The position numbers and the translations under genes are program-made. A stretch of DNA of 18,364 nt from Candidatus Magasanikbacteria bacterium CG_4_10_14_0_8_um_filter_42_12 (GTDB lineage: Bacteria > Patescibacteriota > Patescibacteriia > Magasanikbacterales > UBA922). Shown here one piece after another: positions 4,441-18,364 of this stretch. The stretch lies in the NCBI GenBank assembly GCA_002784795.1, contig PFLZ01000063.1, positions 1-18,364 of the forward strand. Reading direction: 5' to 3'. The number at the start of each line of letters is the position of its first letter. The stretch's first letter is position 1. The notes beneath the pieces were generated by a model that worked only from the letters and a program-made list of their open reading frames with translations, did no database searches and was not told the origin of the DNA.

Positions 4441-4527
4441 GGAGGGATGGCTGAGCGGTCGAAGGCGGCGGTCTTGAAAACCGTTGTGGATGAAAGTCCA
4501 CCTAGGGTTCGAATCCCTATCCCTCCG
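4441..4527 (+). tRNA. tRNA-Ser (anticodon UGA)
   Basis: A class II tRNA of 87 nt. The acceptor stem GGAGGGA pairs with TCCCTCC (4520-4526) and the discriminator is G, as in serine tRNAs. The anticodon loop CTTGAAA presents TGA, reading UCA and relatives. The long variable arm (GTGGA...TCCAC) and the T-arm (TAGGG TTCGAAT CCCTA) are intact. CCA is not encoded. Confidence 0.95.
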
Positions 4528-4574
4528 CTCACAGATGGAGTCTTGTCAGTCAAAGGCGAGTCCGATTGTGGCGG

Positions 4575-4639
4575 AAAAACTGTTGTGGATGAAAGTCCAC
4601 CTAGGGTTCTCCCGACTCAGTCGGGACTATCCCTCCGCT
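4575..4639 (+). pseudogene. Broken 3' copy of tRNA-Ser(UGA) with a palindrome in the T-arm
   Basis: This repeats the last part of the preceding tRNA almost exactly: the variable arm (GTGGATGAAAGTCCACC), the start of the T-arm (TAGGGTT) and the acceptor end (TATCCCTCCGCT). The middle of the T-arm is replaced by a 17-nt palindrome at 4610-4626. Upstream of it, 4540-4574 retains only scattered similarity to a tRNA 5' half, with no anticodon loop. It cannot make a tRNA but could still be transcribed with the cluster. Confidence 0.75.
4610..4626. repeat. Palindrome TCCCGACTCAGTCGGGA inside the broken tRNA copy
   Basis: A 17-nt palindrome (arms TCCCGACT/AGTCGGGA, one central base). It starts TCCCG and ends CGGGA, as do the palindromes at 4809-4835, 5029-5055 and 11037-11066. 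Confidence 0.7.
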
Positions 4640-4655
4640 GTGCATCGAAATATCG

Positions 4656-4741
<86 letters not shown>

Positions 4742-4788
4742 GGACGATTTTCCCAAAAAAAGAATCTCGTATAGAAAGAAAAAACAGA

Positions 4789-4855
4789 AGGGTTTCAGGG
4801 AACACTGATCCCGCACACACAACGTGGTGGCGGGACGAATCCCTCACTCTCCGCA
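4789..4855 (+). repeat. 67-bp direct repeat, copy 1: palindrome plus serine tRNA 3' end
   Basis: Begins AGGGTTTCAGGGAACACTGA, holds the palindrome TCCCGC...GCGGGA (4809-4835) and ends AATCCCTCACTCTCCGCA, identical to the 3' end of the tRNA at 4872-4958. Copy 2 (5009-5075) differs by 3 bases. I read it as a decayed tRNA copy whose T-arm received a palindromic insert, later duplicated with a unit of about 220 bp that includes the tRNA between the copies. Confidence 0.75.
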
Positions 4856-4871
4856 GATGACCTTTCCACAA

Positions 4872-4958
4872 GGAGAGTTGGCTGAGTGGTCTATAGCAGC
4901 AGTTTACTAAACTGTCGTCCTTGAAAGAGGACCGGGGGTTCGAATCCCTCACTCTCCG
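4872..4958 (+). tRNA. tRNA-Ser with unusual anticodon ACU
   Basis: 87 nt. The acceptor GGAGAGT pairs fully with ACTCTCC (4951-4957) and the discriminator is G. It has a long variable arm (GTCC...GGAC) and a T-loop TTCGAAT. The anticodon loop TTACTAA sits on GCAGT/ACTGT and gives anticodon ACT. It differs from the GCU tRNA loop (TTGCTAA) only by A instead of G at position 34. Serine tRNAs with A34 for AGU are not standard in bacteria. The folding looks intact, so this may be expressed rather than dead. It is flanked on both sides by the 67-bp repeat. Confidence 0.85.
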
Positions 4959-5008
4959 CATAATACTGTTTCCAACACCGACAACCCCCTTTCTAGCGCA
5001 ATGTTCAA

Positions 5009-17093: not shown

Positions 17094-17281
17094 ATAACAC
17101 GTAACATGGAACACATAGCACGTAACAATCTTGCTATGTACGGCCGGACACCTCGCAAAGAAAGATTGCGCTTCGTTATACCACAGGCATCAGTGTTCCC
17201 TGAAGATTATGTGCTTGCCAACAAACACGGTGTGTTACGTGTTACGTGCTACGTGATTCGTGAATAAGTGCTACGTGCTAT
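17094..17281. repeat. Heptamer-bounded element 3
   Basis: Left array 17094-17128 has five units (ATAACAC, GTAACAT, GGAACAC, ATAGCAC, GTAACAA). Right array 17232-17281 has seven units in the opposite sense (GTGTTAC twice, GTGCTAC, GTGATTC, GTGAATAA, GTGCTAC, GTGCTAT), one of them 8 bp. The 103-bp interior (17129-17231) has no gene and only a small hairpin CGCAA/TTGCG. A 62-codon plus-strand frame through it is repeat-derived. Confidence 0.8.
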
Positions 17282-17302
17282 AAGTTATCCTCACAAATTC
17301 CA

Positions 17303-17331
17303 TTGACTTCAAGACTTTTTTATGGTATATT
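17303..17331 (+). promoter_or_regulatory. Strong sigma-70 promoter for small RNA 1
   Basis: TTGACT (17303-17308), a spacer of exactly 17 nt, and TATATT (17326-17331) preceded by TG (extended -10). The expected start is 17338, which is the first base of the 13-nt inverted repeat described for RNA 1. Confidence 0.72.
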
Positions 17332-17337
17332 TTTTAC

Positions 17338-17408
17338 ATGATAAGCCAGGTTGCAGAAATACCGTTTGCACCTACTCTAGAGTCCCGTTTTCGGGGTTCT
17401 TTTTTTTT
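17338..17408 (+). ncRNA. Predicted small RNA 1 (about 71 nt), complementary to RNA 2
   Basis: It runs from the predicted start to the end of a strong intrinsic terminator. The 5' end ATGATAAGCCAGG (17338-17350) is exactly complementary to 17459-17471 in RNA 2; with one G-U pair the pairing extends to 17 nt (17338-17354 with 17455-17471). A small hairpin AGGT(t)GCA/TGCACCT (17348-17373) partly competes. There is no open reading frame with a sensible start. I do not recognise an RNA family. It could act on RNA 2 as an antisense, or be the leader of one longer RNA with an early terminator. Confidence 0.55.
17379..17408 (+). terminator. Intrinsic terminator of RNA 1
   Basis: A 9-bp stem (AGAGTCCCG with CGGGGTTCT, two G-U pairs) with loop TTTT, followed directly by nine T (17400-17408). 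Confidence 0.82.
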
Positions 17409-17409
17409 A

Positions 17410-17418
17410 TGATATACT
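17410..17418 (+). promoter_or_regulatory. Extended -10 promoter for RNA 2
   Basis: TGaTATACT (-10 at 17413-17418) directly after the terminator T-tract. The -35 region falls in the terminator hairpin and is poor (TTCGGG). Expected start 17424-17425, exactly at the base of the RNA 2 closing stem. Confidence 0.5.
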
Positions 17419-17424
17419 TTTTGC

Positions 17425-17510
17425 GGTGGATATGAGGATGAGCGCGGGGGTTCCGCAGCCTGGCTTATCATCTAGGTTTCTGGGGTTCAACTCCCCCTCA
17501 CTCCACCACC
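17425..17510 (+). ncRNA. Predicted tRNA-like structured RNA 2 (about 86 nt)
   Basis: It folds as a cloverleaf. The closing stem is GGTGGA (17425-17430) with TCCACC (17503-17508). Three hairpins follow: GCGG-GGGTT-CCGC (17444-17456); CCTGG-CTTATCAT-CTAGG (17459-17476); and a T-arm-like GGGG-TTCAACT-CCCC (17482-17496). The 3' part (T-arm, then TCACTCC, then ACCA) is just what a tRNA or tmRNA end looks like. However, the matching 5' acceptor strand GGAGTGA is missing, the anticodon-like loop has 8 nt, and the D-arm region is wrong. So it is not a working canonical tRNA. The 8-nt loop and its 5' stem are the target of RNA 1. No tmRNA tag frame or 5' domain is present upstream. Confidence 0.5.
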
Positions 17511-17547
17511 AAAGAGACTCTGTAATATGCAGGGTCTCTTTTGTTAC
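17511..17547 (+). terminator. Intrinsic terminator of RNA 2
   Basis: A 12-bp stem (AAAGAGACTCTG with CAGGGTCTCTTT, one G-U) with loop TAATATG, followed by TTTTGTT. It follows the RNA 2 3' end immediately and runs into the next heptamer array. Confidence 0.72.
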
Positions 17548-17750
17548 ATGCTATCTGTCACGAAATACATAACACATAGCACGCAACACTTATTCACGAA
17601 ACACGTAGCACATAACACGTAACAAGGTGAAACTAAGGAGTTTGGGAAAAAATTCAATGTATACCATCGCATACCCAAGATCTGTGTTCTTTTTGTATTC
17701 CTATCTCACTACAACGTGTTACGTGTTATGTGCTACGTGTTCCGTGATTT
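17541..17750. repeat. Heptamer-bounded element 4
   Basis: The left array is twelve units at 17541-17625; the first three (TTGTTAC, ATGCTAT, CTGTCAC) point the other way, and the rest (GAAATAC, ATAACAC, ATAGCAC, GCAACAC, TTATTCAC, GAAACAC, GTAGCAC, ATAACAC, GTAACAA) in the left-array sense. The right array 17716-17750 is GTGTTAC, GTGTTAT, GTGCTAC, GTGTTCC, GTGATTT. The interior (17626-17715) holds nothing I recognise. Part of the left array (17576-17625) is a 90% inverted copy of 17232-17281, including the odd 8-bp unit. Confidence 0.78.
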
Positions 17751-18059: not shown

Positions 18060-18364
18060 ATGACAAAGCAGCGTACCATCTTCGCCGCCATCCTGGCGGC
18101 TCTCCTGATGTTCGGGTGCGACACAGCATCCACCCCCACCAACACCCAGACTGACACGGTCGTCGCGGACGCCGGCCCCAAAGCCGACAATCCCGACCAG
18201 CTCCCCGTCCAGGTCGAGACCACTCTCGTGATCTCGCTCCAGTACCCGATCATCGACGGTGATCTGCAGATCGCGATCTACCCGGTCGGTACATCGCCGA
18301 CAAAGGTCAGCTGGACGACCGTGACTGAGGGGAACACTTCCTTCGTCATCGACGTCTTCGTCGG
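18060..18364 (+). CDS. Putative lipoprotein (3' end cut by the window)
   Basis: 101 codons visible, open to the window end. The start has a good Shine-Dalgarno (AAGGA, 18046-18050, 9 nt spacing). A lipoprotein signal peptide follows: basic MTKQR, hydrophobic IFAAILAALLMF, then a lipobox-like MFGC with Cys20. Next comes a Thr/Asp/Pro-rich spacer to about residue 50 and then beta-type sequence (TTLVISLQYPIIDGDLQIAIYPVG). I do not recognise the mature domain. By my count about 85 of 101 codons end in G or C, unlike all other genes here, and it has the only convincing Shine-Dalgarno in the window. Confidence 0.78.
   Translation, partial: MTKQRTIFAAILAALLMFGCDTASTPTNTQTDTVVADAGPKADNPDQLPVQVETTLVISLQYPIIDGDLQIAIYPVGTSPTKVSWTTVTEGNTSFVIDVFV

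Follow-up and report, generated by a model that had tools for sequence, protein, structure and literature searches.

Two predicted transcription units at the window locus

The window, by which we mean the whole 18,364-nucleotide stretch of DNA analyzed, is contig C23 (G000:C23) within a 1.04-Mb genome and contains two adjacent predicted promoter-terminator units, of a kind also predicted at homologous loci, that would give rise to two small RNAs (coordinates are on the + strand unless marked otherwise). The first unit opens with a promoter at 17303..17331, made up of a TTGACT -35 element, a 17-nt spacer and a TATATT -10 element, which matches the consensus at 10 of 12 positions and places the predicted start of RNA 1 at 17338, 7 bases 3′ of the end of TATATT, in agreement with the position that a first-pass annotation of the sequence had derived from promoter spacing. 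Taken alone, this promoter is no more than chance would give (a scan of a 1.2-kb stretch returned one RNA 1-type promoter, against 2.6 expected by chance), and it gains weight because homologues retain it. The predicted transcript, a putative antisense RNA at 17338..17408, has a 5′-end (17338-17354) complementary to the loop and 5′ anticodon strand of RNA 2 and an internal hairpin (17348-17373) that by inspection is roughly antisense to the RNA 2 D-arm. It ends in the strong intrinsic terminator already pointed out in the annotation (17379..17408), a stem at 17379-17400 followed by a T-run, which was recovered by a terminator scan that found four in the 1.2-kb stretch versus 1.0 expected.

The second unit is preceded by an extended -10 promoter, TGaTATACT (17410..17418), from whose position a start of RNA 2 at 17425 is probable, and is followed by a probable terminator hairpin at 17513..17543. 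Both elements of this earlier description can be seen in the sequence, but neither appears in the lists returned by the promoter and terminator scans. The 5′ leader GGTGGATATG (17425..17434) contains a GGTGG that is present in 12 of 13 aligned sequences and could be an alternative partner for the CCACC end. The body of RNA 2 (17435..17508) is tRNA-Ala-like and is matched by the covariance models R1 and R2, both of which were built with the window copy included. It comprises acceptor strands at 17435-17442 and 17497-17504, a D-arm at 17444-17456, an anticodon arm at 17459-17476, a T-arm at 17482-17496 and an ACCA end at 17505-17508. The cloverleaf had been described as having no canonical acceptor 5′ strand, which is wrong for the family, where these two segments form 8 bp. 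Within the anticodon arm lies an 8-nt anticodon-like loop, CTTATCAT (17464..17471), with the TTRNYA core typical of the family, and it is here that the pairing with RNA 1 starts. The window copy keeps the G3:U70 pair (17437:17502) and has A·C mismatches at 1:72 and 4:69 that are peculiar to it, the other 27 of 28 aligned sequences differing at these positions; given these two acceptor mismatches, the window RNA 2 may be poorly charged or decaying.

The claimed pairing of 17338-17354 with 17455-17471 (inverted repeat I6) holds at the coordinates given for it. Its RNAduplex energy is -39.5 kcal/mol, and its complementarity score of 38.5 stands against 17.2 ± 2.2 in dinucleotide-shuffled flanks and was reached in none of 60 shuffles. 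A 209-nt window sequence folds as a single long hairpin (-81.4 kcal/mol, z -5.5). The RNA pair is bounded by a 56-nt inverted repeat (89%; left arm 17233..17288 on the + strand, right arm 17569..17624 on the - strand) that belongs to a repeat dispersed in the genus; among the 60 loci tested for long flanking inverted repeats, the window locus is the sole one so bounded. The equivalent site in two genomes of the same genus, G001 and G002, spans about 60 nt versus about 660 nt in the window, and a third, G003, has a different insert. An Rfam search at the window locus returned no match above cut-off, the best one below it, a tRNA-like element of plant viruses that we rejected as an identity for RNA 2, reaching 24.4 bits where the cut-off is 40. 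The window copy also falls under the gathering cut-off of the tRNA model RF00005, and the tmRNA model RF00023 finds no full-model match there, reaching 8.6 bits over 15 model positions against a cut-off of 47.

A relative of tRNA-Ala and its antisense partner

The conservation of RNA 2 identifies it as a tRNA relative. By blastn, 14 of 95 related genomes had a match, with RNA 2 covered in 12 (the genome of the window included). The 13 aligned sequences have an 8-bp acceptor, a D-arm with a short GG loop, a mostly 8-nt anticodon loop, and the features that had first suggested a tRNA, namely a T-arm, with a 4-bp stem and a TTCRA-type loop, and an ACCA end that is usually encoded. Across 28 sequences of the main subfamily, in which the acceptor and T stems have 8 and 4 pairs, 95.1% of the 586 cells of the predicted structure are paired and 16 of its 21 pairs change on both sides; the covariation of the cloverleaf is 0.468 compared with 0.162 ± 0.014 for shuffled alignments and at most 0.148 for slid structures. 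The anticodon stem is about 5 bp and the variable region about 5-6 nt in the alignments. Pair 3:70 is G·U in 28/28 of these sequences, next to pairs 4:69 and 5:68, for which 10 and 13 sequences, respectively, have both bases changed, and G3:U70 together with A73 is found in 74/74 sequences of a larger set, one of which (G499) is an ordinary tRNA-Ala. This constancy was not imposed by the search, because the covariance model also matches ordinary tRNAs, including tRNA-Glu.

The anticodon loop departs from this alanine identity. Counted from U33, 7 of 59 loops do read UGC, an alanine anticodon. ARAGORN named no tRNA in 51 of the 74 sequences and called 11 as Ser(UGA), 3 as Arg(GCG), 8 as others and 1 as Ala, the last being G499, by its sequence an ordinary tRNA; apart from that one, none of the 74 was called with the alanine anticodon in a 7-nt loop that a normal tRNA-Ala would have. 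Anticodon loops of 8 nt with C37 should decode poorly. A second subfamily has a near-normal tRNA shape, with members that ARAGORN names Ser(UGA), Arg(GCG) or Cys(GCA), and it accounts for all six members, among 16 loci, that exceed the RF00005 gathering cut-off (45.6-62.6 bits). Judged by these features, RNA 2 is predicted to be an alanine-identity RNA that lacks a normal alanine anticodon loop.

RNA 1 is almost certainly antisense to RNA 2, as far as sequence comparison can establish such a relation. At 55 of 75 loci, the complementarity exceeds that of all 60 shuffles of the locus's own flanks, a fair comparison in that the shuffles select segments in the same way as the real loci; a null drawn from the flanks of other members was inflated by shared seeds and was replaced by these own-flank shuffles. 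By inspection, the remaining 20 loci include G506:C9, without a clear RNA 1, the ordinary tRNA of G499, and many with interrupted matches. The 75 loci were chosen partly because an RNA 1 had already been seen and are composed of 38 of 43 matches (5 ordinary tRNAs omitted), 9 of 20 weak matches (11 ordinary tRNAs omitted), 3 further loci, another 3 from a pattern search, and 22 more; they retain one ordinary tRNA-Ala, G499, as well as G506:C9, which has no clear RNA 1, and the set of 74 is the same set minus G506:C9.

In three further measurements, each RNA 1 segment was the one that best fitted its own RNA 2, a choice that favors cognates. First, across 15 columns of the loop pairing, paired cells make up 88.7% at the 59 loci that have a TTRNYA loop, versus 62.9 ± 1.3% after random re-pairing (maximum 66.7% in 500). 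The 88.7% is inflated by that choice of segment, but several of these columns show at least three standard pair types; the loop arm itself occurs as 58 distinct 15-mers among the 59 loci. Second, among 49 RNA 1s from the 16 genomes with at least two loci, 48 bind their own RNA 2 best, at a mean of -43.0 kcal/mol versus -25.6 kcal/mol for the others in the same genome. Third, in co-folding of the 52 upstream-type loci, the duplex takes in 71% of the anticodon 5′ strand and loop, 57% of the D-arm and 41% of the acceptor 5′ region, compared with 2% of the T-arm and acceptor 3′ strand, and at 46 of the 52 the gain is larger with the own partner than with a foreign one. This coverage indicates that RNA 1 is antisense chiefly to RNA 2's 5′ half; second-subfamily RNA 1s, by inspection, also cover the loop and 3′ anticodon strand. 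The two units differ in predicted promoter strength. RNA 1 promoters average 9.66 of 12 consensus matches versus 7.80 for RNA 2 and 7.66 for shuffled sequence, and a TTGAC -35 is present in 42/64 RNA 1 promoters versus 2/64 RNA 2 promoters, which on average have a -10 element and no -35 element. Some RNA 1s start with ATG or TTG, and we considered and rejected a leaderless peptide; by eye, the reading frames of L005 and L015 soon end, and other members have TAG in place of the start.

Gene order, spread and surroundings

The relative order of the two RNAs varies. By best match at 74 loci, RNA 1 lies upstream on the same strand at 52, downstream at 15, and convergently on the opposite strand at 7. 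One of the opposite-strand cases, L109 from Peregrinibacteria, has by eye a TTGAAA-17-TAATAT promoter for RNA 1 and a two-way terminator that it has in common with RNA 2. Because the order is variable, the pairing must join two molecules. The first-pass annotation had offered three readings of the locus, and for the one in which an antisense RNA would control a tRNA-like RNA, the antisense relation is strongly supported at the sequence level by the covariation, the preference for the own partner and this variation in gene order, the control being putative.

Such predicted two-RNA modules are present across Patescibacteria, in a patchy distribution and often in several copies. Model R2 has matches in 15/380 sampled genomes of the class at E ≤ 1e-9 and in 16/379 of the phylum at E ≤ 1e-8, the genome of the window included in each, counts that omit members whose scores are like those of tRNAs and include a few ordinary tRNA-Ala (G499, G474:C27). 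RNA pairs number six in genome G029, five in G068 and four each in G015, G017 and G077, and a 1.86-kb unit at G230:C10:4660-8475 (L252) is repeated in tandem, giving three RNA pairs adjoining a gene that by eye encodes a zinc-ribbon-type protein. Two sets of matches that lie outside the 75 loci bear on the reliability of the search. When eight previously unexamined phylum matches were inspected, seven had an RNA 1 behind a promoter-like sequence, with 0 or 1 of 60 single-base shuffles reaching the score, and the eighth was an ordinary tRNA-Ala(UGC). A second twenty weak matches consisted of 17 ordinary tRNAs, two loci with an RNA 1, G077:C35 (0/60 shuffles) and G037:C35 (4/60), and G069:C28, and the forty weak R1 matches in all (33.9 to 44.3 bits) of 28 ordinary tRNAs, 11 loci with an RNA 1, and G069:C28. 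Ordinary tRNAs may score near a tRNA gene on the opposite strand, as at G022:C20 (0/60) and G000:C97, and within the genus the weak matches listed for G002 and G003 are tRNA-Glu. None of 299 sampled Pseudomonadota genomes had an R2 match, in a run made without a positive control. A viral origin was considered and not favored: 16 viral contigs match the T-arm pattern, and by eye 14 of them have ordinary-looking tRNAs, whereas the other two, L133 and L137, have a TTGACA promoter followed by a short tRNA-Ala-like RNA that keeps G3:U70 and the T-arm and lacks an anticodon arm.

Among the ORFs up to 6 kb from each of the 33 strongest loci, no protein family is shared by more than four genomes. The sole family found in four is TrbL/VirB6-like, represented in the window by a protein matching PF04610 at 27.4 bits (cut-off 25.9), and a pair lies within about 300 nt of such a gene in G000:C23, G017:C21:10500 and G029:C9:13261. 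The contig end (window 18060-18364) holds a GC-rich lipoprotein-like frame (0.62, in a window of 0.41 GC) with no Pfam match, and similar frames occur near loci in G029, G068 and G077. Elsewhere in the window, at 4441-4959, are three consecutive tRNA-Ser genes, one with the unusual anticodon ACT.

Possible functions and related RNA systems

How such a pair might act is suggested by the combination of a fixed charging identity and a drifting loop. We favor, at a little under even odds, a two-RNA module of the addiction type, resembling a toxin-antitoxin system, in which RNA 2, when not bound by RNA 1, would receive alanine and misread codons. RNA 2 would adopt a tRNA fold and, by virtue of G3:U70, accept alanine, but its loop is abnormal, usually 8 nt long in the main subfamily. 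RNA 1, made as a dedicated antisense RNA from the stronger promoter, would first pair with the U-turn-like loop of its cognate RNA 2, using a short complementary stretch that in the main subfamily is the 5′-end of RNA 1. The duplex would then spread along the 5′ side of the anticodon stem to the D-arm and the 5′ strand of the acceptor, and the tRNA fold would be lost and decoding with it. Once released from RNA 1, RNA 2 would take part in translation as an Ala-tRNA that reads a wrong codon or shifts the frame, and its loop could change over time so long as RNA 1 changed with it. The addiction reading draws on the close linkage of the two RNAs in any order, the mutually specific copies, the patchy presence, the stronger antisense promoter, and the drifting loop beside a fixed charging identity. 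With more reserve, we speculate that the modules form a new class of RNA-only addiction or defense systems, each a mistranslating alanine tRNA toxin with an antisense antitoxin, present in many mutually specific copies across Patescibacteria and possibly triggered by decay of the antisense RNA once a phage or stress has shut transcription down.

RNA 2s without an escort weaken a strict addiction model, under which they are expected to be rare for a toxin. Besides G506:C9, these include G069:C28:17336-17422 (L293, minus strand), where RNA 2 is intact and the upstream RNA 1 unit keeps its promoter and terminator and has lost the complementary segment, a case that slightly lowers the odds of a toxin-antitoxin function. 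Of six model matches in the Peregrinibacteria genome G781, two have a clear RNA 1 within 280 nt, and four (C1:6598, C17:40071, C16:40895 and C14:87186) have no clear antisense partner within that distance.

The same G069:C28 locus, where RNA 2 is apparently tolerated without a working RNA 1, fits an alternative in which RNA 2 is a useful, regulated alanine-accepting tRNA, employed in conditional recoding, in frameshifting or as a non-ribosomal alanine donor, with RNA 1 setting its level or barring it from the ribosome and with no toxicity. The invariant G3:U70 and A73, the preserved tRNA fold, to the point that six members pass the Rfam tRNA model, and a stronger RNA 1 promoter that would hold RNA 2 off by default are all in keeping with this account. 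We nevertheless regard it as unlikely, since the loop arm drifts, with a nearly unique 15-mer at each locus, whereas a decoding role should conserve it; the patchy presence, the copies with mutually specific partners, and the want of a recurrent neighboring protein to use the alanine also count against it.

Improbable, in our estimation, is a role for the RNA 1:RNA 2 duplex itself as the active particle, a bipartite, tmRNA-like RNA for ribosome rescue. tmRNA is likewise an alanine-charged tRNA mimic with G3:U70, and G015, G076 and G077, with 4, 2 and 4 pairs, are among the 9 of 95 draft genomes without a tmRNA match above cut-off, which may reflect assembly gaps. The other 86, including that of the window, do have such a match, on which ground we rejected a general replacement of tmRNA; moreover, by eye no conserved reading frame is seen in RNA 1, and pairing over the D-arm and the 5′ strand of the acceptor would take the tRNA fold apart. 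There is also little chance that RNA 1 regulates mRNAs elsewhere and that RNA 2 is a tRNA-shaped sponge for it; the free 5′-end and strong promoter of RNA 1 do resemble those of a seed-type sRNA, but a sponge leaves unexplained both the invariant G3:U70 and A73 and the way in which RNA 1 tracks RNA 2 copy by copy, each with its own sequence. The two remaining readings of the first-pass annotation, an element of 134 bp bounded by terminal inverted repeats, here taken as mobile with 13-bp repeats, and a single attenuator RNA with long-range pairing, are suggested by the perfect inverted arms inside I6 and by the long hairpin of the window but are very improbable there and refuted for the family, because a pairing that joins two molecules, and is kept where RNA 1 is downstream or convergent, excludes both, and because an element would need identical termini across copies, whereas the arms vary between loci yet remain complementary, and the conserved promoter, T-arm and acceptor lie outside the 134 bp.

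No tRNA mimic with an antisense RNA dedicated to it is known to us from another system. We found none described in the open-access literature, searched by title or abstract; the arrangement of a tRNA-like RNA with a dedicated antisense RNA looks like an RNA-only poison-antidote pair or off-switch. It differs from tmRNA (RF00023) in that no tag frame is seen in the module, and the window's own genome has a canonical tmRNA match elsewhere. The proposed course of pairing recalls ColE1 RNA I/II and IS10 RNA-IN/RNA-OUT, where contact between a free 5′-end or loop and a U-turn loop starts the pairing and the helix then grows; by their description, these are set apart by their targets, a primer or an mRNA as opposed to a tRNA-like RNA. 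The allo-tRNAs are closer in structure. In the passages covered of a review of these RNAs, they come from Clostridia, Proteobacteria and Acidobacteria and are suggested to be serine isoacceptors whose variable arm and anticodon stem are longer, and a UAU group was unusable in translation in one tested host (E. …) (PMC7609411). According to the same passages, they have the 8/4 acceptor/T arrangement of RNA 2, some carry G3:U70, and their anticodons are unrelated to identity (PMC7609411). The 12-bp acceptor domain (8/4 or 9/3) that characterizes them is found in RNA 2 as 8 + 4 in 28 sequences. RNA 2 differs in its short variable region, with no long arm, its anticodon stem of about 5 bp and its mostly 8-nt loop; on the point of serine identity, it has G3:U70 in 74/74 sequences. 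The word "antisense" occurs nowhere in that review (PMC7609411). Pairs in which both partners are RNAs are found in SdsR/RyeA, a type VIII toxin-antitoxin system of mutually cis-encoded RNAs, each of which brings about degradation of the other (PMC6610125), and in CreTA, where toxin and antitoxin are both RNAs and CreA acts on the promoter through Cascade (PMC12737573). Our module would resemble them as a predicted RNA-RNA pair and differs in that neither toxin is a tRNA mimic in the passages covered of these sources (PMC6610125, PMC12737573), the toxicity of RNA 2 being putative.

Should that toxicity prove true, RNA-RNA toxin-antitoxin systems would gain a novel type of RNA toxin in RNA 2, and with the module the idea that a tRNA can be toxic can be tested directly. 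It spans a mostly uncultured phylum and has retained the alanine identity pair while discarding the normal alanine anticodon loop. It might account for some of the unusual tRNAs found in metagenomes, and it makes many natural, mutually specific RNA pairs available. Separately, at G029:C1:53253-53326 (L193), a different hairpin RNA has a 12-nt complement downstream of a TTGACA promoter and may be another kind of paired RNA.
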